From: an uncultured Woeseiaceae bacterium
Lineage (GTDB): Bacteria; Pseudomonadota; Gammaproteobacteria; Steroidobacterales; Woeseiaceae
Direction: 5' to 3'
NCBI GenBank assembly: GCA_947258565.1
Contig: CAMYJB010000007.1
Coordinates: forward strand, 62,001 to 126,000
DNA length: 64,000 bases
Shown: positions 16,108 to 51,211 of the stretch, piece after piece
How the letters are laid out: each line of letters begins with the position of its first letter
Numbering within the stretch: position 1 is the stretch's first letter
Notes under the pieces: generated by a model
What the model was told of the DNA's origin: nothing
Seen by the model: the letters and a program-made list of their open reading frames with translations, nothing else
Databases searched by the model: none
Made by a program: the position numbers and the translations under genes

Positions 16108-16195
16108 AGGCGAACGGGTCATTTGTCTCCCTCATGGCTCGCCACGCTGCGCGCGGCTGCGCTTTACTTCGGTCGACAAACGCCCCGGCACGCCT
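16108..16195 (+). repeat. Dispersed hairpin repeat, copy A
   Basis: An 88-base imperfect palindrome between truD and the convergent Smr gene. The outer arms begin AGGCGAACGGG and end CCCCGGCACGCCT, and TTTGTC pairs with GACAAA. The centre holds the conserved core TCATGGCTCGC...GCTTTACTTCGGTCGA, including an inner GCCACGC/GCGCGGC near-hairpin. Three relatives lie at 27242, 50917 and 51129. Confidence 0.85.
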
Positions 16196-16197
16196 TC

Positions 16198-16217
16198 TGT
16201 AGGAGCAGTTGTCGACC
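16198..16217 (+). repeat. TAGGAGC REP-like half-element
   Basis: TGTAGGAGCAGTTGTCGACC directly follows hairpin copy A. It shares the GTAGGAGC core with the flanking 24-base arms and with the element at 51060, but I see no perfect partner arm of its own nearby. Confidence 0.5.
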
Positions 16218-16236
16218 CGCGATTCCGGTTGATCCA

Positions 16237-16260
16237 ACCGCGCGCCGAAGCGTGCTCCTA
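16237..16260 (-). repeat. REP-like palindrome arm (right)
   Basis: Exact reverse complement of 16070-16093, ending GTGCTCCTA on the plus strand. It lies 26 bases beyond the 3' end of the convergent Smr gene, so the pair of arms almost fills the space between the two stop codons. Confidence 0.75.
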
Positions 16261-16285
16261 CACCAAGCATCGCGAAGACCGCCGC

Positions 16286-16813
16286 TCAATTTTGCCTGAG
16301 CAGGACGTAGATCGCGCCGGTGCCGCCATGCACCTGGCGCGTGGAGACGAACGCGAGCACGGCATCCCATTGCCGCAGCCAGCGGTTGACCTTTTGTTTC
16401 AGCACCGGCCCGCGCGCGCCGGAGCCGCGGCCCTTGCCGTGTACCACGCGGACGCAGAGCCTGCCGTCGCGCGCGCAGGATTCGATAAACGCCTGGAGCC
16501 GCGGCTTCGCCTCGGAGACCGTCATGCCGTGAAGGTCGATTTCGGCCTGCACGCTGAAGCTGCCCCGGGCGAGCTTGCGCATGGTGCGCCTGCCGACCGT
16601 CGGTCGGCGAAAACGCAGGGTCTCGCCACTGTGGCTTTCCGTATCGTCGATGTCTGCCTCGAGACTCTCGCGCAGGGCCGCCACCTCATCCGCTCGCGAG
16701 AAGCGGGCGTTGGGTGCGGGCTTGCGGACAACTTCCTCGGCTCGCCGCGCCGCACGCAGTGGTTTCGCATCGGCGAGGGCGCGGCGGAACAGATCTGCAT
16801 CGTCGTCTGTCAC
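16286..16813 (-). CDS. smrA: Smr-domain DNA endonuclease-like protein (SmrA/YdaL type)
   Basis: A 175-residue protein whose C-terminal half is a Smr (small MutS-related) domain: IDLHGMTVSEAKPRLQAFI with the LDLHG-type motif near residue 93, VRVVHGKGRGS, and GGTGAIYVLLRQN at the end. Smr domains of this class have nicking endonuclease activity; the cellular role is uncertain. The N-terminal part is charged and poorly conserved in my reading. It is convergent with truD and divergent from surE (93 bases). Confidence 0.85.
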   Translation of the reverse strand: MTDDDADLFRRALADAKPLRAARRAEEVVRKPAPNARFSRADEVAALRESLEADIDDTESHSGETLRFRRPTVGRRTMRKLARGSFSVQAEIDLHGMTVSEAKPRLQAFIESCARDGRLCVRVVHGKGRGSGARGPVLKQKVNRWLRQWDAVLAFVSTRQVHGGTGAIYVLLRQN

Positions 16814-16851
16814 GGTATCGTGTCCTGAAAACTATGGTGCGGCTGGAACAT

Positions 16852-16861
16852 TGAGTATAGT
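16852..16861 (+). promoter_or_regulatory. Candidate -10 element for surE operon
   Basis: TATAGT at 16856-16861, preceded by TTGAG, lies 45 bases before the surE ATG in the 93-base divergent gap with smrA. No convincing -35 hexamer is seen, so this is tentative. Confidence 0.35.
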
Positions 16862-16906
16862 GAGCGCGTCGCGAGCAGCCAAACGATCACCTCCGCCCCA
16901 GCAGCA

Positions 16907-17656
16907 ATGAAGATCCTCGTAAGTAATGACGACGGCTATCTCGCGACAGGCATCAACGTACTTACCGAGGCGCTTGCCGCGGTCGCGGATGTCGTGGTAG
17001 TTGCCCCCGATCGCAACCGGTCAGCAGCCAGTAACTCGCTCACAGTGCATACGCCGCTGCGCGTCCAGAAAATTGCGGCAAATCGCTACAGCGTGGACGG
17101 CACGCCGTCGGATTGCGTGCACCTGGCGCTCACCGGCTTTCTCGATTACGAACCCGACCTGGTCGTCTCGGGGATCAATCACGGCGCGAATCTCGGCGAC
17201 GATGTCATCTACTCAGGCACCGTGGCGGCAGCGATGGAGGGGCGTTTTCTCGGGCTCCCCGCCATTGCGGTGTCGCTGGCAGGATATGGGCGCCTGGAGC
17301 ATTTCGATACGGCTGCGCGTGTCGTTACCGAAATGGTGAAAAAGCTGCAACGCGCGTCGTTCGCCTCCAATATCACGCTGAACGTCAACGTACCGGACAG
17401 GCCTTACGACGAGCTCACGGGCGTCGTCGCGGCACGTCTCGGGTTCCGGCACAAGTCCGAGCCCGTCGTGCGCGAGAAGGACCCCCACGGTCGGACTATC
17501 TACTGGGTGGGCCCGGCCGGCCGCGGAGCGGATTCGGGCGACGGTACGGATTTCCATGCGATCGAGCAGGGCGCGGTAGCGGTAACCCCACTGAAGGTCG
17601 ATCTGACGCGGCACGATTCCCTGCCGCTCATAACCGACTGGCTGGCGAATGAGTAG
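16907..17656 (+). CDS. surE: 5'/3'-nucleotidase SurE
   Basis: SurE (249 residues) is a metal-dependent nucleoside monophosphatase, linked to stationary-phase survival. The metal-binding aspartates are in [11 protein letters not shown] (residues 8-9), and the characteristic [20 protein letters not shown] segment follows around residue 88; [14 protein letters not shown] and [13 protein letters not shown] also match the family. It overlaps pcm by eight bases. The surE-pcm-nlpD-rpoS cluster is widely conserved in Gammaproteobacteria. Confidence 0.96.
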
Positions 17657-18311
17657 CACCCGCGGCGGAATCGCCGGCATCGGGATGACGTCGGCAAGGA
17701 CCCGCGACCGGCTCGTGGAGCGCCTGCGCGCCCACGGCATCCGCTCTGAGGCGGTGCTGAACCAGATACGTAACGTTCCGCGCCACCTGTTCGTGGACGA
17801 AGCGCTGGCAAGTCGCGCTTACGAAGACACGGCCCTGCCGATCGGTCACGGCCAGACGATCAGCCAGCCCTACGTCGTTGCAATGATGACAGAGGCCCTG
17901 CTGGACGGATTCGACGGTGAGACGGTGCTGGAGATCGGTACGGGTTGCGGATACCAGACGGCCGTACTGGCGTCCCTGGTCAAAAAGATCTATTCCGTGG
18001 AACGTATCCCGGAACTATTGAGAAGGGCAAAGCAGCGCTTGCGCGATCTCGACATCTACAATGTGCAGTTTCGACCCGGCGACGGTTGGGACGGATGGTC
18101 CAAGTATGCACCCTACGACGGTATCATCGTGGCCGCTGCGGCGCCGGTCGTGCCGGAGAAGCTGCTGGAGCAGCTGGCACCCGGCGGCCGCCTGGTCATG
18201 CCGGTGGGAGCACCGGGCTATCAGGAGCTGATGCTGGTTACGCGACAAAACGAACACTTCGAGCAAAAATCGCTCGGAGGCGTGAGTTTCGTGCCGCTCG
18301 TTCATAGTTAA
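17649..18311 (+). CDS. pcm: Protein-L-isoaspartate O-methyltransferase
   Basis: Pcm (220 residues) methylates L-isoaspartyl residues of damaged proteins to start their repair. The SAM-binding motif is [46 protein letters not shown] and the [18 protein letters not shown] segment are family hallmarks. The ATG at 17649 overlaps surE by eight bases. After the stop comes a short AT-rich gap with a palindrome before yqaA. Confidence 0.95.
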
Positions 18312-18324
18312 AGTCATAATTATT

Positions 18325-18342
18325 AATATGTTACAACATATT
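18325..18342. promoter_or_regulatory. Operator-like palindrome in AT-rich island before yqaA-nlpD-rpoS
   Basis: AATATGTTACAACATATT is a perfect 8-bp inverted repeat with a two-base centre, inside a roughly 45-base AT-rich island (18308-18352), unusual in this GC-rich sequence. TATTAT at 18343-18348 could serve as a -10. The site is placed to control yqaA, nlpD and rpoS. The binding protein is unknown. Confidence 0.5.
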
Positions 18343-18389
18343 TATTATGTTGATTCTGCTGTGCAGGCAGCAAAGGGCGGGTAGCCAGG

Positions 18390-18974
18390 ATGGCCTTATT
18401 CGGACCACTTTACGAGCGCGTCATGCGCTGGTCGCGACATCCCCGTGCCGAGTGGTATCTCGGCGCCATGAGTTTCGCGGAGTCCTCGTTTTTCCCCATC
18501 CCGGTCGACGTCATGCTCGCGCCGATGTGCATGGCGATGCCCGAGCGCTCGTGGCGCTATGCGATCAATGCCTCCTTGCTGTCGGTCGTCGGCGGTATTG
18601 CCGGCTACGCGATCGGCTATCTCGCCTTCGAAGCCATCGAACCCTGGCTGCGCGAGTCGCACTACTGGAGCGCCTATCAAACGGCGCAGGCCTGGTTCGA
18701 CCGCTACGGTTTCTGGACGGTATTCGTCGCCGGCTTCTCGCCGATTCCCTACAAGGTGTTCACGATCGCGGCCGGGGTCGCAGTGCTGAATTTGCCCGCG
18801 TTCATCCTCGCATCGATCATCGGTCGCGGCGCCCGCTTCTTCCTCGTGGCCGGTGTTGTGAAGTATGCCGGTGTGCGGCTCGAGACCACCCTGCTCAAGT
18901 ATATCGAGCGCATCGGCTGGGGCGTCGTCGTCGTCAGCGCCGTCGTCATCGCGTATCTCATGGCGCGGGGTTGA
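18390..18974 (+). CDS. yqaA: YqaA family membrane protein (SNARE-associated/DedA-like)
   Basis: A 194-residue integral membrane protein of the YqaA branch of the DedA/VTT superfamily. Visible features are the ESSFFPIPVDVMLAPMCMA re-entrant segment, several hydrophobic helices (about 60-80, 107-128, 134-155, 170-190) and the GFSPIPYKVFTIAAGV motif resembling DedA G-x-x-P-x(R/Y)-x-x-x. DedA-related proteins are implicated in lipid flipping, but YqaA itself is of unknown function. It shares one base with nlpD (TGATG). Confidence 0.85.
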   Translation: MALFGPLYERVMRWSRHPRAEWYLGAMSFAESSFFPIPVDVMLAPMCMAMPERSWRYAINASLLSVVGGIAGYAIGYLAFEAIEPWLRESHYWSAYQTAQAWFDRYGFWTVFVAGFSPIPYKVFTIAAGVAVLNLPAFILASIIGRGARFFLVAGVVKYAGVRLETTLLKYIERIGWGVVVVSAVVIAYLMARG

Positions 18975-19648
18975 TGCGCGCACGGATCGTCGCGGGCGTG
19001 CTTGCTGCGCTGTTGCTCGTGGCGTGTGGTTCAGGCAGCAACTGGCAGGCGAAGCCGGAGCAGCATGTCGTTCGCAAGGGCGAGACCCTGTTTTCGATTG
19101 CCTGGCGGTACGGCAAGGACCCGGCCGACGTCGCACGCTGGAACCGCCTCGGCGACGGGTCGCTCATTTACCCCGGCCAGGTCATCCGCCTGACGCCGCC
19201 GCCCGGGACCAGCCGGCGCACCGCATCGTCAGGCAGCAGCAGCCGGCAGCCCTTGCCGTCGATCCCCGCGCAGCCGCCTCCGGCCTGGGCCTGGCCGACC
19301 CGCGGCCGGATCGTCGTGGAATATGGCGGGAAACCGGGTAGCGGCAGCGGTGTTCTGATCGACGGCCGCGCCGGGCAGGCCATAGTTGCTGCGGCCTCCG
19401 GCCGGGTGATGTATGCGGGCGGTGGACTGATCGGCTACGGTCAGCTTATCATTCTGAAACACAACGACACCTACCTCAGTGCCTACGGGCACAACGCGAA
19501 GTTGCTGGTCAAGGAGGGGCAGTCCGTTCGCAAGGGCCAGCAAATCGCGACGATGGGGGAGGGGCCGGAAAGAAAGCCGCGACTGCATTTCGAAATCAGG
19601 CGCAATGGCGAGCCGGTTAACCCGCGACGGTATTTGCCCGCGAGTTAA
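18974..19648 (+). CDS. nlpD: NlpD-like lipoprotein, LysM plus degenerate M23 domain
   Basis: A 224-residue lipoprotein. The lipobox LLLVAC puts the lipidated Cys at 18. A LysM peptidoglycan-binding module covers about 33-77 (VRKGETLFSIAWRYGKD), then a Ser/Pro linker and an M23/LytM domain (about 100-220). The first zinc-ligand motif (HxxxD) is replaced by GSGVLIDG while YGHN and LHFEIR remain, so it is likely not a peptidase but an amidase activator, as known for NlpD. A longer upstream frame overlaps yqaA and is rejected. rpoS follows 27 bases later; in relatives rpoS promoters lie within nlpD. Confidence 0.92.
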   Translation: MRARIVAGVLAALLLVACGSGSNWQAKPEQHVVRKGETLFSIAWRYGKDPADVARWNRLGDGSLIYPGQVIRLTPPPGTSRRTASSGSSSRQPLPSIPAQPPPAWAWPTRGRIVVEYGGKPGSGSGVLIDGRAGQAIVAAASGRVMYAGGGLIGYGQLIILKHNDTYLSAYGHNAKLLVKEGQSVRKGQQIATMGEGPERKPRLHFEIRRNGEPVNPRRYLPAS

Positions 19649-19675
19649 TTCGACTTATACCTGATTCCCCGCATC

Positions 19676-20656
19676 GTGGTTCCAGCGAGGGGGTATCGGC
19701 GAGTGCAAAAAGCGCGATCGCAGAGCGGCAAGTCGAAGCAGAGACCGGGCAGCAGCACCGGTTCCCGTGGTTCTGCAGCCACGGCGGGAAACGGCAGCGC
19801 CGCGAAATCCGACACGCTCGCCGTTCGCTCTCACGATCCCACACGCCTCTACCTTTCCGAGATCGGCGTTTCGCCGTTACTGACCGCCGACGAGGAGAAG
19901 AAGTATGCGCGCCTTGCCCAAGGCGGCGATGAGGCAGCCCGGCACCGGATGATCGAGAGCAACCTGCGGCTCGTCGTGAAAATCGCGCGCCGTTACATTA
20001 ATCGCGGTTTGCCGTTGCTCGACCTGATCGAGGAGGGCAATCTCGGCCTCATTCACGCCGTGGAGAAGTTCGATCCGGAACGCGGGTTCCGTTTCTCGAC
20101 GTACGCCACCTGGTGGATTCGCCAGACCATCGAGAGGGCAATCATGAACCAGTCGGGATCGGTGCGACTCCCGATCCACGTCATCAAGGACATCAACACC
20201 TGCCTGCGCGCGGCCCGCAGTATCCGGCAACAGCAGGAAAGGGAACCGACCACCGCGGACATCGCCAGGTATCTGCAGCGCGACGTCGAGGACATCGAGC
20301 GCCTGATGGCGCTGCACGACCGGGTAACGCTGGGGTCGGGCAGCGTCGATGAGACTGGTTCCGGACCGGTGGATCGCCTGCGTGCCAGGCGAGAATCGGA
20401 GCCGCCTCGCTGCGCGCAAAAGGACGACGTCAGCGACATCGTTGACCGCTGGGTCTGTGAACTGAACGAAAAGCAACGCGAAGTCGTGGAGCGTCGCTTC
20501 GGTCTGCACGGCTACCGCCGGGAGACGCTGGAGCGCATCGGCGAGGAGATCGGTGTGACCCGTGAGCGGGTCCGGCAAATCCAGCTGGAGGCACTCAGGA
20601 ACCTGCGCGCAATGATGGAGAGCAACGGCATCTCGGGTGACTCGATCCTGGACTGA
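19676..20656 (+). CDS. rpoS: RNA polymerase sigma factor RpoS
   Basis: The stationary-phase/general stress sigma factor, 326 residues from GTG at 19676. A second GTG at 19703, ten bases after GAGGGGG, is equally plausible and would shorten it by nine residues. Region 1.2 is [17 protein letters not shown]; region 2 holds [20 protein letters not shown] and [17 protein letters not shown]; region 4 ends with the helix-turn-helix [15 protein letters not shown]. Synteny with nlpD, and the lack of a large RpoD-type 1.1/non-conserved region, distinguish it from RpoD. Confidence 0.95.
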
Positions 20657-20669
20657 GACAGTTCAGCTG

Positions 20670-21440
20670 TCAGGGGTTCTCAAGATCGGTCGAGAGGGGG
20701 GCGAGCCCAAAGATGAAGTTTTTCTCCCACAACACTCGCTTTGCAGACACTACCTCCATCTTTATGCCAGTCGCTTCGGCCAGTGAGGTGATTCGGCCTA
20801 TGTCGCAGTCGTCGGAAAGGATCATCCTCACGATACTGGTATCTGAGATGTGCGAGGGAAGCTGAGCGAATAGCTTGGAAAAATATTCATAATTGGAACC
20901 ACAGAACCAGGCGTAGTCAGCGGCGCGTTCCGGGTTCGATGGAAAATACGGCGGATTGACTATTACGACGTCGAATGTCGTGTTGGCCAGGTTATCGAAC
21001 ATATCAGAACAGATTGCCGTTACTGCGACTCCATTTGACGCCGCGTTATCCTCGATGCCTTGTACAGAGATCTCGCTGATGTCACTTGCCGTGACCTGTG
21101 CTCCTCGCCGCGCCGCGAGAATCGACAGCAAGCCGCTCCCCGCACCCAGTTCAAGAAACCGTGTGGATTCGAGCTGCAGGCAATCCAGGTGCGCTGCGAG
21201 TAGTTTGGTACTGAAGAAAAGACCGGGATGAAAAACGCCGGGCTTTACAGTGACTTCGATGCCTCGTAAGCGGTATTGGCGTTCTGTTTTCAGATATTGC
21301 ACTACGAGGGGGCGATATACGAGATTGAGAAATCTCTTGATCAACGATCTGGCAGACAACTTATTCATCGCGATGTTCGTAGAACCGTCCAAATGAGCAT
21401 TTCGGACGCGTACGTCACCGCGTGGCAAAAAAGAGGTCAC
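20670..21440 (-). CDS. Class I SAM-dependent methyltransferase, RsmC/PrmC-like
   Basis: A 256-residue protein with a Rossmann-fold methyltransferase core: ELGAGSG at 97-103 (SAM motif I), ASDISEISVQ (acidic loop), and NPPY at 162-165, the motif of N-methyltransferases acting on planar nitrogens. The substrate (protein glutamine, rRNA base or small molecule) cannot be told. The GTG start at 21440 has GAGG about seven bases upstream; an internal ATG at 21368 is an alternative. Base and codon use are clearly more AT-rich than all neighbours, which suggests recent transfer. It is convergent with rpoS, with 13 bases between them. Confidence 0.75.
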   Translation of the reverse strand: MTSFLPRGDVRVRNAHLDGSTNIAMNKLSARSLIKRFLNLVYRPLVVQYLKTERQYRLRGIEVTVKPGVFHPGLFFSTKLLAAHLDCLQLESTRFLELGAGSGLLSILAARRGAQVTASDISEISVQGIEDNAASNGVAVTAICSDMFDNLANTTFDVVIVNPPYFPSNPERAADYAWFCGSNYEYFSKLFAQLPSHISDTSIVRMILSDDCDIGRITSLAEATGIKMEVVSAKRVLWEKNFIFGLAPLSTDLENP

Positions 21441-21449
21441 TGCCGTACC

Positions 21450-21815
21450 TCATAGATAGAGCAAGGCCACCAGCCGGCGGCCCTCTCCGGCCAGCACGTT
21501 GAAGGTGCGCGCGGCCGCCGCCGTATCCATAACCTCCAGCCCGATTCGGCGTCTCGCAAACGCGAATGTCAGTTCGCGCGGTGGAAAAACGGTGCGCTTG
21601 CCGGTGCCGAGGATCAGGAGTTCGGGCTCATCCTCGAGCAGTATGTCGAAATGTGACAGGTCCAGCTCCTCGATGGGAGGTGGCGCGAAGTCCTCGAACA
21701 CGCCATCGGGTGTCAGCGCTATGGTATCCGTGTACCGGTTCTCGCCGATGACAATCGCCTCGCCGGTCACCCGGCGTATAGTCGTTGCTGATGAAATTTC
21801 CCGCGTGAACTTCAA
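21450..21815 (-). CDS. Mth938-like (DUF498) domain protein
   Basis: A 121-residue protein of the Mth938/NDUFAF3-like fold (DUF498). Typical features are the N-terminal GEAIVIGENRYTDTIALTPDG, central PELLILGTGKRTVFPP and the C-terminal TFNVLAGEGRRLVALLYL. Its mitochondrial relative is a complex I assembly factor, but the bacterial role is not established. It lies ten bases upstream of the methyltransferase gene on the same strand, and is divergent from the RpfE-like gene across 68 bases. Confidence 0.85.
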   Translation of the reverse strand: MKFTREISSATTIRRVTGEAIVIGENRYTDTIALTPDGVFEDFAPPPIEELDLSHFDILLEDEPELLILGTGKRTVFPPRELTFAFARRRIGLEVMDTAAAARTFNVLAGEGRRLVALLYL

Positions 21816-21883
21816 AACCGGATTCCGTTACCATCGTCCGCCCACGCGCAATCATAGCGAACAGCGAGATCGGACCCAAAAGC

Positions 21884-22852
21884 GTGCCACTACCTTACGA
21901 CAGTTCGGCTGCCGTCGTGCTCCTGCCGCCGGTGCGTGGGCGGCTTACCGACCGCAAGTTGCTGCGCTGGCTGTCCCAGGCGCAGCTGGAGGCATTGCCC
22001 GCGCCTGTCGATCCGTTCGCCCAGGTGCTCGGTACCCTGGGACTTGAACGGCCCGTCGACGGCCTGGCTGCGCTGCGCATGTGGGGCCAGACGGGCGACC
22101 CGCCGGGCACCTGGATCGCTGCGGCGGATCCGGTTTACATGGAACCGCAGCTCGATCGCCTGTTCCTGCATGCGCTCGGTCCCGAGGAGGTGGACAAGTC
22201 GGAAATGCGGCGACTGTTCGACGCTTTGCAGGACACCCTGGGCGCGGACGGCGCATTGGGTTTTGCGAGGCTCGGCGCCTGTGGTTATATCCGCTCAGGG
22301 CGGCCGATGGTGACGTCCCAGCTGCCGGCGGCCATGCTGGACAGGCAGAACCCGAAGAAATCAATGCCGCCGGCGGGCTCGGCTGCGGACACCCTCAAGC
22401 TGACTTCGGAGATCGAGATGACGCTGCACGCGCAGCCTGTCAATGCAGAGCGACAATCGCACGGCCGGCCGCCCGTCAATTCGCTGTGGATCTGGGGCGG
22501 TGGCTACGCACCGGAACGGCGCGCAGTCCCGGTACCCCCGCTGTATGCGGACGATCCACTCTTGCGCGGCTTCTGGGAGAGCGTTTACGGAACCGCCCGG
22601 CCATGGCCTGGCGCGATCGGGGCGTGTCTCGAGATGGCGTCGGGCAGTTTCGTTGCCGAGGTTCCGGCTCCACAGGATGATGGGACCGCGTTGAACGGTG
22701 ATCTGCTGGCCCTTCGAAACGCGCTGCGATCGGGCAGGTTGCGCCACGCCGTAGTGATTTCGGCCGACGGGCTGCGCGCGACGCTGCGGCGGTCGGACCG
22801 TTTTCGTTTCTGGCGCCGGACGTCTGCCCTTCTCGGGGGAGCTCAGGCGTGA
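21884..22852 (+). CDS. RpfE-like / phosphoglycerate mutase-related protein
   Basis: A 322-residue soluble protein resembling the family annotated as RpfE-type regulatory protein or cofactor-independent phosphoglycerate-mutase-like in Xanthomonas and Betaproteobacteria. The diagnostic piece is NSLWIWGGG at residues 199-207, with PVNAERQSHGRPP before it and VISADGLRATLRRSDRFRFWRR near the end. Metal and catalytic motifs of true mutases are not evident, and the function is unknown. The GTG start at 21884 is used. It overlaps recJ by four bases (GTGA), a pairing also known from the Xanthomonas rpf region. Confidence 0.7.
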   Translation: MPLPYDSSAAVVLLPPVRGRLTDRKLLRWLSQAQLEALPAPVDPFAQVLGTLGLERPVDGLAALRMWGQTGDPPGTWIAAADPVYMEPQLDRLFLHALGPEEVDKSEMRRLFDALQDTLGADGALGFARLGACGYIRSGRPMVTSQLPAAMLDRQNPKKSMPPAGSAADTLKLTSEIEMTLHAQPVNAERQSHGRPPVNSLWIWGGGYAPERRAVPVPPLYADDPLLRGFWESVYGTARPWPGAIGACLEMASGSFVAEVPAPQDDGTALNGDLLALRNALRSGRLRHAVVISADGLRATLRRSDRFRFWRRTSALLGGAQA

Positions 22853-24567: not shown

Positions 24568-24615
24568 TAATATCGCGCGTTTTCCGCGCCACGGGGCGCC
24601 CTGGATCGGAGCAAC

Positions 24616-27219: not shown

Positions 27220-27241
27220 TCTTTCCTGGTGTGCCGATCAC

Positions 27242-27320
27242 AGGCGCACCGGGTCATTTCTCTCCCTCATGGCTCGCTTCGCTGTGCTTTACTTCGGTCG
27301 AGAAACGCCCCGGTGCGCCT
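27242..27320 (+). repeat. Dispersed hairpin repeat, copy B
   Basis: A 79-base imperfect palindrome between lysS and the convergent small gene. Arms AGGCGCACCGGG and CCCCGGTGCGCCT pair almost perfectly, and TTTCTC pairs with GAGAAA where copy A has TTTGTC/GACAAA, a compensatory pair of changes. The core TCATGGCTCGC...GCTTTACTTCGGTCGAG is shared with the other copies but lacks the inner GCGCGGCT insertion. Confidence 0.85.
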
Positions 27321-27385
27321 GATCGTCGTGCTCAGGGTCCACCGAACCGGGATTCGTGCCCCGAGATAGGGTCGTGCTGCAGGCG

Positions 27386-42061: not shown

Positions 42062-42438
42062 TCTTCGGAGTTGGGACGGACGTCGTCGAGTTATCACGCA
42101 TTCAGGCTACCTACGATCGCTTCGGCGAGCATTTCGTCAGGCGCCTGCTCATGGAAGAGGAGCTCGCGCTGTTCCGCAAGACGAAATGGCCGATCCGTTT
42201 TCTCGCCATGCGTTTCGCAGGCAAGGAGGCGACCGTCAAGGCGATGGGCACCGGGTTTGCTCATGGCGTATGGTTGCGGGACGTGGGTATTACGAACAAC
42301 GAGTGGGGCCGTCCACTCGTCATCTGGTCCGAGCGCGGCCAGCGTGTCTGTGACCGTCTCGGTATCGGCGCAGGCCACGTCAGCCTTACTGACGACGCGG
42401 GTCTCGTGATCGCATTCGCCACAGTAGAGAAAGCCTGA
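42058..42438 (+). CDS. acpS: Holo-[acyl-carrier-protein] synthase
   Basis: AcpS (126 residues) attaches 4'-phosphopantetheine to acyl carrier protein. The start [15 protein letters not shown] contains the metal-ligand Asp, and [16 protein letters not shown] has the second conserved Glu/Lys motif. The GTG start overlaps the pdxJ stop, the usual arrangement. The next gene (exonuclease) starts one base after the stop. Confidence 0.95.
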
Positions 42439-42439
42439 T

Positions 42440-43216: not shown

Positions 43217-43225
43217 CCTGCGGGC

Positions 43226-44542
43226 ATGGCGCGCGGCAAGCGACAGCCGGAAACGGCAACGATTGCGTCCGTCACACACGATGGGCGAGGTATTGCGGAT
43301 ACGAGTGGCAAAAAGGTCTTTGTGGCCGGGGCGCTCGGCGGCGAAGAAGTTCGATTCGTGCGGCGCAAGTCGCGCCGCAATTTCGACGAAGCCGAATTGC
43401 TCGACGTCATCACTGCCTCAGCCGAGCGCGTGGAGGCAAAGTGTGCAGCGTTTGGCCGTTGCGGCGGCTGTGCGTTGCAGCACGTCAGCATCGACCAGCA
43501 GCGCGCCATCAAGTTCGAGGCGCTGCGGGATAACCTCGAGCGCATCGGTCAGGTCGAGCCGCGCCGCTGGCTGGAAGCGGTCACCGGCCCGGCGTGGAAT
43601 TACCGCCGTCGCGCGCGGCTTGCCGTCAAGGACGTCAGTGCCAAAGGCCGGGTGCTGGTGGGCTTTCGCGAACGGCACGCGCCATTCATTACCGATATGC
43701 ATCGCTGCGAGGTGCTTGCACATCCGGTCGACGGGCTCATCGCTCCGCTCAGCGAATCGATCGGCAGGTTATCGATACGCGCACGCATACCGCAGATCGA
43801 AGTCGCCGTGGCGGACAATGCCACAGCCCTGGTATACCGGGTGCTCGATCCGCCGAGCGGGGCCGATCTCGACGAATTTCGCCGCTTCGGAGACGAGCAC
43901 GACGTGCGTATCTACCTGCAGCCGGGCGGCCTCGATTCGGTAAGCCTGTTGCACCCGGACAGCGAACAAGAGCCGCTTTACTACACACTTCACGAATTCG
44001 ACGTGCGCATCGAGTTCGAGCCAGTCGATTTTGTGCAGGTCAACGACGAAATAAACCAGGCAATGGTCGGCAGGGCGATTGAATTGCTCGAGCCGGAGCA
44101 GGAGCATAGGGTCCTCGACCTCTATTGCGGTATCGGCAACTTTTCCCTGCCGCTCGCGCGGCGCAGCGGCGAAACGCTCGGTGTGGAGGGCGACGCAATG
44201 CTGGTGCGCCGGGCCGCGGCTAACGCGGCCGGCAACGCGCTCCCGAACGCCACGTTCCGCCAGGCCGACCTCGCCGCCATCGACGGCACGGAAAAATGGC
44301 TGCAGGGTCCGTGGGACCGGTTGCTCCTGGATCCGGCGCGCAGCGGAGCGGCGGAAGTCGTGAAACACGTCGGGCGCATGGATCCGGCGCGGGTCGTATA
44401 CGTATCCTGCCATCCCGGCACACTGGCGCGTGACGCCGGTGTGCTGGTGAACGAGGGGGGCTATTCGCTCGATGCGGCGGGCATCATCGACATGTTCCCG
44501 CATACGGCCCATGTCGAGTCAATTGCTGTTTTCGGTAAATAG
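43226..44542 (+). CDS. rlmD: 23S rRNA (uracil-1939-C5)-methyltransferase RlmD
   Basis: RlmD/RumA (438 residues) methylates U1939 of 23S rRNA. An N-terminal TRAM domain (about 8-65) precedes the [4Fe-4S] cysteines 73, 79 and 82 (CAAFGRCGGC) with a fourth near 158. The methyltransferase domain contains DLYCGIGNFSLPLA for SAM and the nucleophile Cys395 in YVSCHPGTLARD. The set of Fe-S cysteines separates it from TrmA; RlmC is less likely given length and motifs. Confidence 0.92.
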   Translation: MARGKRQPETATIASVTHDGRGIADTSGKKVFVAGALGGEEVRFVRRKSRRNFDEAELLDVITASAERVEAKCAAFGRCGGCALQHVSIDQQRAIKFEALRDNLERIGQVEPRRWLEAVTGPAWNYRRRARLAVKDVSAKGRVLVGFRERHAPFITDMHRCEVLAHPVDGLIAPLSESIGRLSIRARIPQIEVAVADNATALVYRVLDPPSGADLDEFRRFGDEHDVRIYLQPGGLDSVSLLHPDSEQEPLYYTLHEFDVRIEFEPVDFVQVNDEINQAMVGRAIELLEPEQEHRVLDLYCGIGNFSLPLARRSGETLGVEGDAMLVRRAAANAAGNALPNATFRQADLAAIDGTEKWLQGPWDRLLLDPARSGAAEVVKHVGRMDPARVVYVSCHPGTLARDAGVLVNEGGYSLDAAGIIDMFPHTAHVESIAVFGK

Positions 44543-44558
44543 TTAATAATTACTTAAC
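44542..44558. promoter_or_regulatory. AT-rich imperfect palindrome before nagZ
   Basis: GTTAA (44542-44546) and TTAAC (44554-44558) form a short inverted repeat around AT-rich sequence, directly after the rlmD stop and 24 bases before nagZ. It may be a promoter or operator; it is too short to classify. Confidence 0.3.
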
Positions 44559-44582
44559 CAGTGGTTCTTCGTGGAGTAGCGC

Positions 44583-45629
44583 ATGTCACTCGGACCGGTG
44601 ATGCTGGACATCGATGGTCTCAGCCTGACGCCGGCTGACCGTGAGCTGTTGCGCGAACCCGCCGTCGGCGGACTGATTCTCTTCAGTCGCAACTACGCCT
44701 CCCCACAACAGCTCACCGACCTCGTGGACGAGGTGCGCGCTATCAGAAGCCCGTCGCCGATCATTGCCGTGGACCACGAAGGCGGCCGCGTACAGCGTTT
44801 CCGCGAGGGATTCACGGCGATCCCGCCCATGCGGGTCATCGGCCGCCAGTACAGTACGGATCCGAGGGCCGCTCTGGCGCTTGCGAGGCAAGCCGGCTGG
44901 CTGATTGCCGCCGAGCTGAGAGCCTGCGGGATCGACGTGTGTTTTGCACCTTGCGTAGATCTCGATTGGGGCGTCAGCGAGATTATTGGCGACAGGGCCT
45001 TTCACGCCAGGCCTGAGGTTGTCGCGGAGCTGGCAGCGGAATTCTCACGGGGTCTGCGCAGTGCCGGAATGGCTGCCGTCGCGAAACATTTCCCGGGTCA
45101 CGGTGCCGTCGTCGCGGATTCCCACGAGCAGCTGCCGGTGGATCGTCGGGAGTACGGCGATCTGCTGGACGACATGCGGCCCTACGACAAGCTGATCAGT
45201 AACGGGCTCATCGCCGGCGTCATGATGGCGCATATCGTTTACCCTGAGATGGAGTCGCTGCCCGCGGGCTTTGCGCCGTTCTGGATACAGCGTGAACTTC
45301 GCTCCAGGCTTGGATTCGATGGCGCTGTTCTCAGCGACGATCTGAGCATGAAGGCGACCCGAACGTATGGCTCGATGCCCGAGCGCGCGCGCCGGGCACT
45401 GGATGCCGGCTGCGACATGGTGTTGGTATGTAATGACCGCGATGCAGCCCAGGCAACGGTGAGGGCACTGCGGGATTTCTCGAATCCGCTCTCGCTCGTG
45501 CGGCTCGCGAGACTGCACGGAACGGGGCACGAAATGCGTGAATCACTGCTCGCCAGCGACCAGTGGCATGAGGCACACTCGGAGCTGTCGAAATGGACCG
45601 AGCCCCCCGAGCTGAAGCTGGACGCCTGA
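44583..45629 (+). CDS. nagZ: Beta-N-acetylhexosaminidase NagZ
   Basis: NagZ (348 residues) is the cytoplasmic glycoside hydrolase family 3 enzyme that removes GlcNAc from anhydromuropeptides in peptidoglycan recycling, and thereby influences AmpC beta-lactamase induction where that system exists. Motifs: VDHEGGRVQRF, KHFPGHG (168-174) with the mobile-loop Asp-Ser-His (179-181), and the nucleophile Asp252 in LSDDLSM. GGAG precedes the ATG. Three bases separate it from the GGDEF-like gene. Confidence 0.95.
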   Translation: MSLGPVMLDIDGLSLTPADRELLREPAVGGLILFSRNYASPQQLTDLVDEVRAIRSPSPIIAVDHEGGRVQRFREGFTAIPPMRVIGRQYSTDPRAALALARQAGWLIAAELRACGIDVCFAPCVDLDWGVSEIIGDRAFHARPEVVAELAAEFSRGLRSAGMAAVAKHFPGHGAVVADSHEQLPVDRREYGDLLDDMRPYDKLISNGLIAGVMMAHIVYPEMESLPAGFAPFWIQRELRSRLGFDGAVLSDDLSMKATRTYGSMPERARRALDAGCDMVLVCNDRDAAQATVRALRDFSNPLSLVRLARLHGTGHEMRESLLASDQWHEAHSELSKWTEPPELKLDA

Positions 45630-45632
45630 ACA

Positions 45633-46517
45633 ATGGAACCGGTCAACAGGAGCATTCTGGAGCAGGTGCTTGCGGAATCCGCGGAGCCTGTGCTGGTCGT
45701 GCGCGTCGATCACTCGGAGTGGCCGGTCGTACTGAGTAACCGGGCGTTTGCCGCCATCGGTGGCGAACATCCGGATGGCGAGCCGTTTGCCGACGTCGTC
45801 GAGCAGATGGTCGGCCGCGAGCTGGCGCTCGAAATCAGCGAAGCGGTCCGATCGGGGCAGGAAACGAGTTTTCCCGTGGAGCAGGGAGGGCGCGAATTTC
45901 TCCTCGTGCTCAAGCCTCTCGCGTTACCCGGCGAGTCAGGGGCGGGATTTTATGCAGCATTCTGGCGCAGCGGGTCCGGCAGCGCATCGACCGCGGGAGC
46001 AGACGTGCAGCATGCGCTGCTGAAGGCGAAGCGGCGCATCCGTGACCTGTCGCGCGGCGATCCCGTGACCGGGCTCCTCAACGGGCGCGCGTTTCGCGAA
46101 GTGCTCGACCACGACTGGGCGGTTGCGGCTCGCGAGAAAAGCGCGCTGGCGGTCGTGGTGTTCGTGCTCGACGATTTCCATGCGTACGTTGACGTGTTCG
46201 GCCGGCACGCGGCCGATTCCTGCCTGCGCAGGGTAGGCCAGGCCATCCGGCGCTGCCTGAGGCGCGCGAGCGACGTCGTCGGGAGGCTGGACGGCGAGCG
46301 GCTGGCCGTGTTGTCGCACGCACCCGACGAGCACGCGGTACAGGATTTCGCGGCGAGAATCTCTACCGCGGTGCGGGAACTCGGGTTGCATCACCCGCGC
46401 TCCAGCGCCGGCCGTTTCGTCACCGTATCGTTTCGCGTTGGCCTGGTGCAGGCCGCGGAAGAATCGCGTAATGCCGGCAAGTTTCTCGACGATCTACTGG
46501 CCGAATTCTCCCGCTAG
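45633..46517 (+). CDS. PAS-like sensor with degenerate GGDEF domain
   Basis: A 294-residue protein. Residues about 8-112 look PAS-like (EPVLVVRVDHSEWPVVLSNRAF), and about 130-290 form a GGDEF-type fold starting LSRGDPVTGLLNGRAFREVL. At the active site the motif reads RLDGERLAVL (218-227), so DGERL replaces GGDEF, which should abolish diguanylate cyclase activity. It may act as a protein-interaction or nucleotide-binding module. No membrane segment is seen. Its 3' end overlaps the convergent csiV gene by 24 bases. Confidence 0.75.
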   Translation: MEPVNRSILEQVLAESAEPVLVVRVDHSEWPVVLSNRAFAAIGGEHPDGEPFADVVEQMVGRELALEISEAVRSGQETSFPVEQGGREFLLVLKPLALPGESGAGFYAAFWRSGSGSASTAGADVQHALLKAKRRIRDLSRGDPVTGLLNGRAFREVLDHDWAVAAREKSALAVVVFVLDDFHAYVDVFGRHAADSCLRRVGQAIRRCLRRASDVVGRLDGERLAVLSHAPDEHAVQDFAARISTAVRELGLHHPRSSAGRFVTVSFRVGLVQAAEESRNAGKFLDDLLAEFSR

Positions 46518-47306
46518 CCCGGCTTCGGCCTCCTCGTCCTCCGCTTCCTCGACGCGGGTAATTTTTGCCAGCACCCCGAATTTCGGATGGTCGAAATAAC
46601 GCAGGTCGCCGCTCTTGAATATGCGGTCCTCGGCGATCCGGAAGCGCACGGGCGCCGGCTGTAAACCGTCGTAGCTTGCCCCGCCGCGGCTGTCCCGGAA
46701 GACTGACACTGTATCGTCGACCGCGATGGGGTCTGCCAGGCCGGATCGCTGCTCGAGGGTCAGATCAACCACGAGATGCAGGTATCGGCTCAGGTACAAG
46801 GTGAAACTGCCGTCGAGCCTTTCGGGAGGCTGCGCCAGCGCGTGCAGCTCGATCGGCCGCGTTTCCTCTTCCGGCCGGGTAACCTGGGTCCATGCGAAAT
46901 GCATGACCGGCCGGTAGACATCCAGCCGTTCCAGCCGGCTGGCTATGTCGGTCATGCTGTATTCGCCCTCGAGGTGAAGAACGAATTCCGGACCGAACGC
47001 CCCGGCTGCCTGCTCGCCGGTGCCGGCGCCAGTATCAGCGCCGGGGTAGGGGCCGGGATCCGGGGCGGGCACCGCGCCGGCGTCCCCGAAAACGAGTTCG
47101 GCGTCCGCGCTGTCATCGGTCGCGGGCGGCGGTTCCTCCGGCAGGAACCGTTCCGTGCCGACCGAGACTTCCTCTGCGTACTCGAAGATGATCACTTCGA
47201 CGGTGTATCGCGGATCCTCGGTAACCTCGGGTTCGGCAGCAGTCTGGGCCACTGCCGTCGTACATGCCAGTGTCATGGCGATGGTTGTCGTTACTCGTCT
47301 TTTCAT
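46494..47306 (-). CDS. csiV: CsiV-like peptidoglycan-associated protein
   Basis: A 270-residue exported protein from the ATG at 47306. A signal peptide (about 1-22, MKRRVTTTIAMTLACTTAVA) is followed by YTVEVIIFEYAEE, the start of the CsiV/DUF2803 domain, then an acidic Pro-rich linker and LYLSRYLHLVVDL, FRIAEDRIFKSGDLRYFDHPKF. In Vibrio, CsiV binds peptidoglycan and responds to a D-amino acid; here the role is inferred. The gene follows mfd on the same strand by 22 bases, matching the Pseudomonas arrangement near nagZ. Confidence 0.82.
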   Translation of the reverse strand: MKRRVTTTIAMTLACTTAVAQTAAEPEVTEDPRYTVEVIIFEYAEEVSVGTERFLPEEPPPATDDSADAELVFGDAGAVPAPDPGPYPGADTGAGTGEQAAGAFGPEFVLHLEGEYSMTDIASRLERLDVYRPVMHFAWTQVTRPEEETRPIELHALAQPPERLDGSFTLYLSRYLHLVVDLTLEQRSGLADPIAVDDTVSVFRDSRGGASYDGLQPAPVRFRIAEDRIFKSGDLRYFDHPKFGVLAKITRVEEAEDEEAEAGLAGEFGQ

Positions 47307-47328
47307 CAAGCCTGTAACCTGCTGACCT

Positions 47329-50300
47329 TCAGCTATTCTGCGCGCCGTCCGGCTCCCGGGCGAGCCTGCCCATGAGGTCCTCGATCGCCCGGAAGCGTGT
47401 CTCGACGTCCTTGAGGTCGACCCTGAAGCTGAGCCGGTGCGAGCCCTGCAGCCGGTAGCTGCGGCTGTCATTTTGCACTAATTGCACGAGCGCGACAGGG
47501 TCAATGCGGCTGTTATCGCCGAACACGAGGTAGCCGCCCGCATCGGCAGCATCGATTTTCTCGATACCCAGCGCCGCGGCGCGCTGTTTCAGCGCCGCCA
47601 TGCGCATGAGGTTCTTCGTCGCATCCGGCAGCAGTCCGAATCGATCGATGAGTTCGACCTGCAGATCACGCAGTTCCTCGGCCGTCCTGGTCCCTGAAAT
47701 GCGCTTGTAGAGCATGAGCCGCAGATGTACGTCGGGGACGTAGTCGTCGGGAAGCAGGGCGGCGACGTGCAGGTTGATATCGACGCCGGCGTCAAACGGC
47801 GTGTCGAGGTTCGGCTCCCGGCCCGATCGCAGGGACTCGACGGCACGTGCGAGCAGCTCCGTGTACAGGGAAAAACCGATTTCCTGGATCTGGCCGCTTT
47901 GCTCCTCGCCGAGCAGTTCGCCGGCGCCGCGAATCTCGAGATCGTGGGTGGCGAGCGTGAACCCGGAGCCGAGGTCCTCCAGCGAGTCGATTGCCTCGAG
48001 CCGCTTCACGGCGTCGGCCGTCATCGCCGCTTTCGGCGGCGCGATAAGGTAGGCGTAGGCCCGATGGTGTGAGCGGCCGACGCGACCTCGCAGCTGGTGA
48101 AGCTGTGCGAGGCCGAATCGGTCGGCGCGGTTGATGACGATCGTATTCGCGGTCGGGACGTCGATGCCGCTCTCGATAATCGTCGTGCAGAGCAATACGT
48201 TGAACCGGCGGTGATAGAAGTCGAGCATCACCTGTTCCAGCTCGCGTTCCGGCATCTGGCCGTGGCCAATGCGCAGGGCCGCCTCCGGTACGAGCTTTGC
48301 GAGACGCTCGCCGACCCGCGCGATGTCCTCGACGCGGTTGTGCACGAAATAGACCTGCCCGCCGCGCTTGATCTCGCGCAGGCAGGCTTCCCGGATTACG
48401 ATGTCGTTCCACTCGCCAACAAAGGTCTTGACCGAAAGCCGCTCTGCCGGCGGCGTCGCAATCAGCGACATATCGCGAATCCCGCCCATCGCCATGTTCA
48501 GTGTCCGCGGAATGGGTGTAGCCGTAAGCGTCAGGACGTCGACCTCGCTGCGCAGCGAACGAATGGCTTCCTTGTGGCGCACGCCGAAACGATGTTCTTC
48601 GTCGATTATGACCAGGCCGATGTCCTTGAAAGATCTCGTGTGCTGCAGCAGCTTGTGCGTGCCGATTACCGCGTCGACGGCGCCGGACTTCATGCCGTCC
48701 ACGATTTCGCGAACCTGCTTTGGCGACCGGAAGCGCGACAGGACCTCGATCCGGACAGGCCAGTCGGCAAACCGGTCGCGGAAGTTCTGGCCGTGCTGCT
48801 GTGCCAGCAATGTCGTAGGCACCAGTACCGCAACCTGCTTGCCGCCGTGAACCGCGGCGAACGTGGCGCGCAAGGCAACCTCCGTCTTGCCGAATCCGAC
48901 GTCACCGCAAACGATGCGGTCCATCGGTTCTTCGGACGCCAGATCCCCGAGTACCTCGTCGATCGTCCGCGCCTGGTCGTCTGTGGGCTCGAACGGGAAG
49001 CCGCTCTCGAATGCCCGGTAATCCGCTTCGGCCCAGCGAAAGCGGTGGCCGGCGCGGGCGGCACGGCGGGCATAAATGTCCAGGAGTTCGGCCGCCGCGT
49101 CCCGGATCTTGCGTATGGCGCGCTGTCGCGCCTTTTCCCACTGATCGCTGCCCAGCCGGTGCAGCGGGGCGGTCTCCGGCGACGTGCCGGTGTATCGCGA
49201 GATCAGCTCCAGCGCATGCACGGGCACATAGAGCTTGTCGCCATCCGCGTACTCCAGGTGTAAAAATTCCCCTTCGACGCCGCCCACGTCGAGGGTTATG
49301 AGGCCGATGTAGCGGCCGACGCCGTACTCGGCGTGAACAACCGGGGATCCTTCCTCGAGATCGTCAAGCTGCCGGATGATTGCTTCCGGATCGCGCGCGG
49401 CGCGGCGCCGCCGGCTGGTGCGCACGCGGTCGCCAAAGAGCTGTTGCTCGCTGATGATCGCGAGTCGTGCCTCGGGTAGCAGGACCCCGTTCTCGAGGGG
49501 CGCGACCGCGACACCGATGCGGTGTTTGGCCGCCGCAAAGTCCGGCCAGTCAGCCACGCGCACGAGGTCGAGGCCGCGGCCGGCGAGAAGCTCGTAGACC
49601 TGTTCACGGCGGCCGGCCGAGTCGGTCGTAAACAGGACGCGGCCGTCGAAGCGCTCGAGAAACTGCGTTAACGCACCGGCCGGATCCTCGTAGCGTGCCT
49701 CGACTTTTAGCGCCGGCGCCATGCGCGTTGGCAGGTTGCGGACGTTCGTGTCCTCGGCGAGCGATTGCGCGGCGTAGCGAACGCAGCGGTAGCGGCCGAG
49801 CCGGGCCATGACTGCGTCACTCGCCGCAAATGTCTCCCCGGGATCGAGAACGGGCCGCTCGGGGTCGAGGCTGCAGAGCTCGTATCGCTCTTCGATCTCG
49901 GCCCAGGTCCGCTCCAGCAGGCCGTCCAGGCCGTCCGGCCTGATGACGATACAGTTGTCGGGCAGGTAGTCGGCCAGGCCGGCGGTCTGCTCGAAGAACA
50001 ACGGCAGGTAGTATTCGATCCCGCCATGCGCTATGCCGTCCGACACGTCGCGATACACTCGCGAGCGGCCGGGCTGGCCTTCGAAGCGCTCTCGATAGCG
50101 CGAGCGAAACGCCCGAATCGCTTCATCGTCGAGCGGCACCTCGCGGGCCGGCAGCAGATCGATCGAAACCATGGTCTCGCCCGATATCTGCGACTCCGCC
50201 GAGAAGTAGCGCAGCGATTCGATCTCGTCGGCGAAGAAATCGATGCGTACCGGCTGCGCCGAGCCCATCGGGAATACGTCGATCAGTGAGCCCCGGACGG

Positions 50301-50796
50301 CAAACTCACCATGCTCGGAGACCTGCGGGACCCGCAGGTAACCTGCCGACGTCAGCGACTCCGTGAACGCGTCATGAGACAGTTGCTGGCCGGTGCGCAA
50401 TGACAGCGAACGGGCAGCGACATAATCGAGTGGCGGCAGGCGCTGCAGCAATGCCGGGGCCGAGGCGATGATCACGCCGCGCTGCATCGAAGGCAGTTTT
50501 GACAGCACGAGCAGGCGCTGCGAGATGATGTCCTGGTGGGGTGAAAAACTGTCCCAGGGCAGGGTCTCCCATTCGACGAAGTGCAGCACCGGGAAATCCC
50601 CGCCCGAGAAAAACCGCAGCTCGGCCTCCAGCTGGTCGGCGTGGCGCGGGTCGTCGGCGAGCACCAGCATCGGCGCGTCGGTCTGTCTCGCGAGCTCGAC
50701 AAACGCGAGCGGCGCGCTGGCGCCGATCAGGCTGCCCCAGCCGGAATCTCGGCCGGACGCCAGGGGTTCGGCAATCAGGAATGTGGGTTCGGGCAC
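47329..50796 (-). CDS. mfd: Transcription-repair coupling factor Mfd
   Basis: Mfd removes stalled RNA polymerase from DNA lesions and recruits UvrA. Domains in order: UvrB-like module with WETLPWDSFSPHQDIIS, RNAP-interacting domain (HAEYGVGRYIGL), translocase with Walker A GDVGFGKTEVALRATFAAV and DEEHRFGVRHK, motif TATPIPRTL, and the C-terminal TRCF domain. I chose GTG 50796 (1155 residues), since a TTG at 50892 would add 32 residues without homology and lies upstream of the TATAAT element at 50830-50825. No strong Shine-Dalgarno precedes the GTG, so the start is uncertain. Confidence 0.95.
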   Translation of the reverse strand: MPEPTFLIAEPLASGRDSGWGSLIGASAPLAFVELARQTDAPMLVLADDPRHADQLEAELRFFSGGDFPVLHFVEWETLPWDSFSPHQDIISQRLLVLSKLPSMQRGVIIASAPALLQRLPPLDYVAARSLSLRTGQQLSHDAFTESLTSAGYLRVPQVSEHGEFAVRGSLIDVFPMGSAQPVRIDFFADEIESLRYFSAESQISGETMVSIDLLPAREVPLDDEAIRAFRSRYRERFEGQPGRSRVYRDVSDGIAHGGIEYYLPLFFEQTAGLADYLPDNCIVIRPDGLDGLLERTWAEIEERYELCSLDPERPVLDPGETFAASDAVMARLGRYRCVRYAAQSLAEDTNVRNLPTRMAPALKVEARYEDPAGALTQFLERFDGRVLFTTDSAGRREQVYELLAGRGLDLVRVADWPDFAAAKHRIGVAVAPLENGVLLPEARLAIISEQQLFGDRVRTSRRRRAARDPEAIIRQLDDLEEGSPVVHAEYGVGRYIGLITLDVGGVEGEFLHLEYADGDKLYVPVHALELISRYTGTSPETAPLHRLGSDQWEKARQRAIRKIRDAAAELLDIYARRAARAGHRFRWAEADYRAFESGFPFEPTDDQARTIDEVLGDLASEEPMDRIVCGDVGFGKTEVALRATFAAVHGGKQVAVLVPTTLLAQQHGQNFRDRFADWPVRIEVLSRFRSPKQVREIVDGMKSGAVDAVIGTHKLLQHTRSFKDIGLVIIDEEHRFGVRHKEAIRSLRSEVDVLTLTATPIPRTLNMAMGGIRDMSLIATPPAERLSVKTFVGEWNDIVIREACLREIKRGGQVYFVHNRVEDIARVGERLAKLVPEAALRIGHGQMPERELEQVMLDFYHRRFNVLLCTTIIESGIDVPTANTIVINRADRFGLAQLHQLRGRVGRSHHRAYAYLIAPPKAAMTADAVKRLEAIDSLEDLGSGFTLATHDLEIRGAGELLGEEQSGQIQEIGFSLYTELLARAVESLRSGREPNLDTPFDAGVDINLHVAALLPDDYVPDVHLRLMLYKRISGTRTAEELRDLQVELIDRFGLLPDATKNLMRMAALKQRAAALGIEKIDAADAGGYLVFGDNSRIDPVALVQLVQNDSRSYRLQGSHRLSFRVDLKDVETRFRAIEDLMGRLAREPDGAQNS

Positions 50797-50824
50797 GAGG
50801 GGCGCATCGGGAAACGGGCCCGCG

Positions 50825-50830
50825 ATTATA
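50825..50830 (-). promoter_or_regulatory. Candidate -10 element for mfd
   Basis: A perfect TATAAT on the minus strand 28 bases before the chosen mfd start, followed by the GC-rich discriminator CGCGGG. No clear -35 is seen at 16-18 bases. Confidence 0.45.
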
Positions 50831-50916
50831 GTCGCGCTGCCTGCCTCTCTCCACACGACCGGCGCAAGCCGCCACCCATAAGCGGTTCGCAAACCGCGAT
50901 CGCTTCATATCTTCGC

Positions 50917-51004
50917 AGGCGCCCGGGGAATTCCTCTCCCTCATGGCTCGCCGCGCTGTGCGCGGCTGCGCTTTACTTCGGTCGAGAAACATCCCGGCGC
51001 GCCT
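50917..51004 (+). repeat. Dispersed hairpin repeat, copy C
   Basis: An 88-base imperfect palindrome upstream of mfd. Arms AGGCGCCCGGG and CCCGGCGCGCCT pair, and the core TCATGGCTCGC...GCTTTACTTCGGTCGAG is identical in most positions to copies A and B. The inner stem GCCGCGC-TGT-GCGCGGC is perfect in this copy. The roughly 480-base gap between mfd and the gene at 51277 holds only this, a REP-like element, copy D and a terminator. Confidence 0.85.
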
Positions 51005-51059
51005 GCTGATTGCTATCAGGCATGACAGAGCCCGGTTGGGGTGCTTGTCGACGAGGCAG

Positions 51060-51103
51060 TAGGAGCTTTTTAAGACAATGCCGCGCGCGGAGCCGCGCTC
51101 CTA
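51060..51103. repeat. REP-like TAGGAGC palindrome
   Basis: TAGGAGC (51060-51066) and GCTCCTA (51097-51103) bound a 44-base element whose interior carries GC-rich GCCGCGCGCGGAGCCGC. It shares its ends with the 24-base arms near truD. It lies between hairpin copies C and D. Confidence 0.55.
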
Positions 51104-51128
51104 AGGGATGCTGTGTGGGGTGTCACGG

Positions 51129-51211
51129 GAACGCTGGCCGGGGTATTCCTCGAGGGAAGTAAAGCGCAGCGCAGCGAGCCATGACCGAGAGGAATACCCC
51201 GGCCAGCGTTC
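51129..51211 (-). repeat. Dispersed hairpin repeat, copy D (inverted)
   Basis: An 83-base element in the opposite orientation to copies A-C. Its arms (51129-51151 and 51189-51211) are a perfect 23-bp inverted repeat, beginning GAACGCTGGCCGGGG, almost unrelated in sequence to the arms of copies A-C. The core read on the minus strand, TCATGGCTCGC...GCTTTACTTC, is the same. It lies 9 bases beyond the terminator of the 51277 gene. Confidence 0.85.

Follow-up and report, generated by a model that had tools for sequence, protein, structure and literature searches.

A rare family of gene-end hairpins in which the apex is fixed, the arms compensate freely and the folding strand can be identified

A 64,000-nucleotide stretch of contig CAMYJB010000007.1 from an uncultured Woeseiaceae bacterium (hereafter the window) carries four copies of an intergenic hairpin, and these four are members of a rare repeat family, about 85 bases long, that occurs at the ends of genes in a handful of unrelated bacteria. 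The hairpin is a known kind of element with a new build, namely a fixed tip, arms that compensate freely and an identified folding strand. Judging from sequence comparison, we read it as a dispersed element without a gene of its own, resembling the repetitive extragenic palindromic (REP) sequences, whose folded single strand would be read by a putative factor acting in trans; we put the probability of this reading at slightly below one half (0.48).

An earlier note, made from the letters of the window, had described a four-copy repeat, and all four copies were found where it placed them, with the arm sequences it quoted, including the perfect 23-bp arm pair of copy D. We assigned to each copy the strand that bears TCATGG, the folding strand being the opposite one. 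Within the boundaries of our family model, copy A, a long form, spans 16108-16195 on the plus strand, so that its minus strand folds, with its core or apex matched at 16132-16170. Copy B, a short form 3′ of a lysS-like gene (this and the names coxIII-like, truD/Smr-like and rhodanese-like were assigned by eye), spans 27239-27323 on the plus strand (core 27267-27295), and copy C, a long form, spans 50914-51007 on the plus strand (core 50941-50979). Copy D, a short form inverted relative to C, occupies 51128-51212 on the minus strand (core 51156-51184), making the plus strand its folding strand, and its two perfect arms at 51129-51151 and 51189-51211 are each other's partners. The model found only these copies in the window, with E-values of 2.3e-11 for A and 1.5e-12 for C, which were among its 51 training sequences, and of 1.1e-17 for B and 4.8e-20 for D, which were outside that set.

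The 3.48-Mb genome contains 38 matches to the core, ATGGCTCGC-N(2-30)-GCTTTACTTC (22 forward, 16 reverse), against none for the same pattern written backwards. Fourteen of these 38 exact copies make up seven inverted pairs, C and D among them, each consisting of one long and one short form lying 116-213 nt apart, start to start. The apex is near-invariant and on the folding strand runs from GAAGTAAAGC through a small tip, in most cases bearing a GNA loop, to GAGCCATGA. In the short form the tip is a small loop, and in the long form there is an extra top stem whose sides covary between copies. The arms, about 28 bp long, are largely free in sequence yet paired: among 151 distinct copies held in one fixed register, the Watson-Crick pairing frequency was 0.60-0.96 for 24 of the innermost 27 arm positions, the remaining three lying at 0.48-0.52, and it was 0.48 at position 28, 0.38 and 0.34 at positions 29 and 30, and 0.25-0.34 thereafter. 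Pairing copies with one another at random gave 0.24-0.27 beyond this edge. Some arm positions near the core hold a base (at up to 0.91), and most do not.

To measure covariation, we used an alignment of 51 copies, made up of two window copies and 49 of the 54 representatives that had been chosen from 157 copies for low similarity. Five copies were omitted from it (L049, L085, L086, L122 and L141), and the pairing figures are flattered because three of these, L085, L086 and L141, pair poorly; other poor pairers, L061, L067, L131 and window copy A, were retained. In this alignment 76.2% of arm cells were paired; shuffling gave 47.5% and sliding the register 36.1-42.7%. The covariation score was 0.662 against 0.194 in shuffles. 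All 28 of 28 pairs had changed on both sides, a count that does not discriminate because shuffles average 26.7.

Compensation was also clear in three of five comparisons between hairpins at orthologous loci, each covering 27 positions, the five sharing loci and so not being independent. L044 and L147 differed by six pairs changed on both sides and two broken in one copy, with identical cores; L014 and L062, which lie 3′ of a coxIII-like gene, by six double changes and four broken pairs, again with identical cores; and L044 and L050 by four double changes and three broken pairs, with a single differing loop base. L050 and L147 showed no double change and five broken pairs, and L018 and L137, whose long-form tips differ and whose register is upset by bulges, one and nine. 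The earlier note's proposal that the folded form is what is maintained therefore stands on pairing and covariation above shuffles and on double changes at some orthologous loci, but not for every copy. When we looked for copies with unpaired arms, as that note had suggested, 11 of 151 were less than 60% paired even with small shifts allowed. Window copy A, the weakest hairpin of the four with 52% of 27 positions paired in the fixed register, is one of these 11, as are L085, a chance match inside a gene, and hairpins that look chimaeric, for example L086.

The kinds of mismatch that the arms tolerate point to one folding strand. Read on the TCATGG strand of 152 copies, isolated arm mismatches comprised 224 A.C, 24 G.T and 232 others; an A.C on this strand is a G.T on the opposite one, so wobble is tolerated on the GAAGTAAAGC strand. 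The raw p value for A.C versus G.T, 7e-42, ignores shared descent, but the 51 diverse copies gave 57 A.C, 8 G.T, 38 C.T and 5 A.G, and 18 of their 19 informative columns leaned to A.C (p 8e-5). Over all mismatches of the alignment, the ratio of observed to shuffled counts was 0.55 for A.C against 0.24 for G.T and 0.68 for C.T against 0.20 for A.G, and the symmetric classes stood at 0.31 and 0.30 (C.C, G.G) and 0.53 and 0.52 (A.A, T.T). By group, A.C:G.T was 34:1 in 15 Coxiellaceae copies and 180:22 in the remaining 124, mostly of Woeseiaceae type; the small groups gave 5:1 (P_S1_bin.12), 3:0 (Myxococcota) and 2:0 (‘Delta’). Among three-base loops, 107 of 116 were TNC, which is GNA on the folding strand, and d(GCGNAGC) forms a DNA mini-hairpin of unusual stability. 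In each of the four window copies the folding strand gives the better fold, with DNA and RNA parameters alike; for copy A as DNA, the TCATGG strand folded no better than shuffles (z -0.12) and the opposite strand had a z of -3.0.

We envisage that the GAAGTAAAGC strand would act as folded single-stranded DNA (ssDNA), exposed in replication or as one side of a cruciform, and that its apex would be recognised by a putative trans-acting protein, for which a hairpin-reading nuclease, a recombinase or a nucleoid protein would be candidates. Recognition of this kind would have dispersed the copies and may even now preserve them, and gene 3′ ends could be either the place where copies do least harm or a site used by the host. 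A more far-reaching version is tentative: the family might be a new class of folded-ssDNA element, read on one strand by a non-RAYT protein (RAYT, REP-associated tyrosine transposase) that moved between phyla together with the element, and retained by hosts as a shared element at gene ends. Structured DNA repeats have usually been argued from folding energy, and here it is the tolerated mismatch types that name the folded strand, a test that could be applied to REP families, bacterial interspersed mosaic elements (BIMEs) and attC-like families. Discovery of a trans factor would add a further hairpin-reading system to RAYT and the integron integrase, and the turnover of arms over a constant apex offers a natural series of compensatory changes.

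A number of results weigh against a folded DNA strand read in trans. Base composition by itself predicts 1.27 times as many A.C as G.T mismatches, the 22 variant-core copies are weakly biased (16:9), and a mutation process biased to one hairpin strand may be a source of the asymmetry. The mismatch data fit a folded RNA as well as ssDNA, and from them the two cannot be told apart. Orientation was unbiased with respect to local GC skew in the sequence stretch around each copy (75 of 148 positive, p 0.75). Outside the arms of 150 copies there is no consistent tag: GTAG occurs within 16 nt in 17 copies on one side and 10 on the other, and CTAC in 1 and 9. No trans factor was identified. The hairpin model had no match in 36 loci bearing a Y1 transposase, no clean empty site was seen in the one comparison examined closely (genome G035 against copy B), and arms are hardly more alike within most genomes than between them, so recent spread is not evident there.

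At the lysS-like 3′ end, 4 of 30 loci carry a match, two of them weak, and at the truD/Smr-like junction 4 of 30, the window's own genome being counted in both. G035, which has no copy at the lysS-like site, has 30 nt where the window has 168 nt between matching blocks, with flanks too different for a clean junction; its copy at the truD site is inverted, with unmatched arms. Mean arm identity within a genome was 0.45-0.58 in eight genomes, and 0.447 between assemblies assigned to the same genus, some of whose labels are one genome under two names. The copies in most genomes thus look old yet retain the apex, which favours continued selection. The similar arms of JARGNX and P_S1_bin.12 (0.70-0.76), and of part of JARGOB, look like the outcome of a more recent spread.

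Nor did the neighbouring genes point to a mobiliser. Y1 transposases had no match in the copy-bearing genomes G061, G062, G065-G068, G025, G026 and G035, several of them incomplete, and were absent from G001, G012, G019 and G022; with no hairpin in the 36 Y1 loci, a RAYT or other Y1 transposase is unsupported as the present mobiliser. The only Y1 match in the window's genome, a gene at 1453-2136 of locus L064 (G000:C11), is flanked by inverted sequences with GGGGACAGTGACT and not by the hairpin. BLAST comparison of stop-to-stop frames from 168 loci returned mostly orthologous neighbourhoods, and one shared group, Nth/MutY-like, lay mostly distant from hairpins and was taken as chance. Where copies lie close together in G027, G061 and G068, no transposase was recognised by eye among the intervening genes, no family search being run. 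Of the candidates in the earlier note, a miniature inverted-repeat transposable element (MITE) is possible; the hairpins are likewise small and dispersed, and neither a clean empty site nor a transposase was seen beside copies.

Copies favour gene 3′ ends, above all convergent junctions. With genes called by a home-made codon-usage caller, and overlapping loci kept in the background, 165 copies divided into 74 between convergent genes, 60 between co-directional genes with no preferred orientation (30 against 30), 11 between divergent genes, 6 in a called gene and 14 in an undetermined setting. Hairpin junctions (n=135) were convergent in 68 cases, co-directional in 57 and divergent in 10, compared with 28, 107 and 61 among 196 other junctions of at least 80 nt, an enrichment at convergent junctions (odds ratio 6.1, p 1.6e-12) and a depletion at divergent ones (odds ratio 0.18, p 1.2e-7). 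In 21 of the 74 convergent cases both stop codons lie within 45 nt of the core. Two gene ends are probably recurrent or old hairpin sites: a rhodanese-like gene end bears a hairpin in G027 and in G068, and in G068 a lysS-like gene end does so too, as in the window (hairpins L360 at 602-627 of G027, and L362 at 650-684 and L363 at 454-479 of G068).

This placement, together with the retention of hairpins at some orthologous 3′ ends, is what would be expected if the hairpin worked in the neighbours' mRNA as a bidirectional gene-end element, either a terminator or a 3′ stabiliser common to convergent genes. We nonetheless consider this unlikely. Split by setting, the A.C:G.T counts were 42:2 for copies whose two neighbours follow the TCATGG strand, 47:4 for those whose neighbours both oppose it, 97:12 at convergent junctions and 7:2 at divergent ones; the bias points the same way whichever way the neighbours run, so their mRNA does not predict it, and neither orientation is preferred among co-directional copies. 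Nor would a terminator require a fixed apex. In 125 high-GC copies T was not enriched outside the arms (0.21 and 0.24 beside them, 0.20 and 0.21 further out); the 26 low-GC copies gave 0.30 and 0.32 against 0.26 and 0.29. The bidirectional terminator suggested in the earlier note thus keeps its fit to convergent junctions, where intrinsic terminators also lie, and loses ground on the missing T-tract in high-GC copies, the conserved apex and a strand bias indifferent to the direction of transcription.

If the folding strand of each copy gave rise to a small RNA of its own, whatever the neighbours do, the mismatches would be accounted for, given that G.T on that strand corresponds to G.U wobble and that G.A is tolerated too, as in RNA, and the predicted RNA folding is strong. 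This is an improbable explanation, as the 85-nt unit is too short to hold a promoter and nothing conserved was seen upstream, beyond the arms, no promoter scan being made. We likewise give little credence to a host site in double-stranded or cruciform DNA, for instance one at which gyrase or a nucleoid protein handles supercoils between convergent genes. The convergent placement and an apex intact despite strongly differing arms would suit it, and gyrase binds E. coli BIMEs; a purely double-stranded site, however, needs no pairing arms and yields no strand bias, and the family is too rare for a universal host protein. Template-switching in replication (quasi-palindrome correction), which would keep arms complementary without selection for the fold and makes double changes in one step, in line with the rarity of one-sided standard-pair changes on the TCATGG strand, is disfavoured to the point of being negligible, since it predicts neither an A.C count about nine times that of G.T among isolated mismatches nor the edge at about 28 bp and the fixed apex.

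Set beside known systems, the element we read as a folded strand recognised in trans is closest to the GTAG-tagged REPs, BIMEs and REPINs with RAYT (TnpA-REP), which in the characterised cases are recognised strand-specifically as ssDNA (PMC3733652, PMC8266576, PMC3116915). Both they and our hairpins are imperfect palindromes that lie outside genes in multiple copies, at 3′ ends and convergent junctions, often as inverted pairs (PMC3733652, PMC8266576, PMC3116915). Our hairpins differ in size (about 85-95 nt versus 20-40 bp), in having a fixed apex on freely changing arms, and in lacking a consistent GTAG tag and a RAYT beside the copies. CGTC-tagged REPs, which have 8-9 bp stems, 4-5 base loops and a terminal CGTC, are alike in being dispersed palindromes reported without a dedicated transposase (PMC3733652). 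Here, in contrast, the arms are about 28 bp long, and CGTC lies outside them in just 4 and 13 of 150 copies. A look-alike motif in variant cores had raised membership of the E. coli REPs, which we rejected: run unfiltered on 50 kb of MG1655, core model R2 gave a best score of 14.5 bits and recovered none of six REP-like pattern sites as such, a single 9.7-bit match touching the edge of one.

Like MITEs, the hairpins are small, dispersed and without a coding gene; unlike MITEs, they have no conserved terminal inverted repeats, their ends being the variable part, and no target duplications were seen beside copies, no systematic test being made. Integron attC sites act as a folded single strand, with base boxes kept and a tip that varies. 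The hairpin would share with them function as a folded strand and inverts the layout, with a fixed tip and varying arms, in a comparison made by eye with no integrase search. Rfam gave no match above gathering score in the window and four sub-threshold matches in four loci, to miRNA and snoRNA families (E 0.083-1.4), which we took as chance. A non-exhaustive search of open-licence literature did not turn up the core words as a described repeat; the earlier note knew of no named family, and these searches and the core model agree.

The family is rare and patchy and occurs in unrelated bacteria. The family model gave 55 matches in this genome and matches in 24 of 30 same-genus genomes, one of which, G027, had 67; among genomes from other genera of the order 1 of 19 was positive. 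The exact core was present in 15 of 36 same-genus relatives and in none of 23 from other genera. Even samples gave no exact core among 397 other genomes of the phylum and one among 368 other genomes of the class, that one from the same genus; the model was found in 2 of the 368, with just 12 candidates scored per genome. Neither viral contigs, scanned for the core pattern, nor plasmids and phages, compared with one 85-nt copy each, gave a match. A contig scan matched the core in at least 104 stretches, and of ten further genomes chosen from it, a choice biased toward carriers, nine carry model matches: 28, 35 and 36 in metagenome-assembled genomes (MAGs) of Coxiellaceae, 33 in P_S1_bin.12, 15 in the unplaced gammaproteobacterium Ww313, 4 in Myxococcota PL23a_bin.25, and 15, 6 and 5 in ‘Deltaproteobacteria’ MAGs (the five matches of the last genome being weak, best E 3e-5), with 0 in DeMMO2_54. 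G122, one of the two model-positive genomes of the class sample and of another gammaproteobacterial family, has four model matches (L237, L240, L243 and L245) that appear to form a further variant lineage; as it lacks the exact core, pattern counts underestimate the family.

Several copies depart from the common build. The hairpins of L086 (4394-4429) and L286 (1398-1473) have two poorly paired arms apparently from different subfamilies and look as if they had recombined at the shared core. Four inverted pairs, in L020, L032, L033 and L035, resemble one another in their arms and in part in their flanks, as if a larger composite unit had been copied about the genome. At the lysS-like site of G001 (L281 at 2517-2623), the arms are well paired and the core is altered to CATGCCTCGG.

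Within the window, all five TAGGAGC words (16070-16076, 16200-16206, 16254-16260, 51060-51066 and 51097-51103) are confined to the two intergenic regions that hold hairpins A and C/D, their number being within chance. A perfect 24-bp inverted repeat (16070-16093 and 16237-16260) surrounds copy A and perhaps belongs to a second, GTAG-type REP family.

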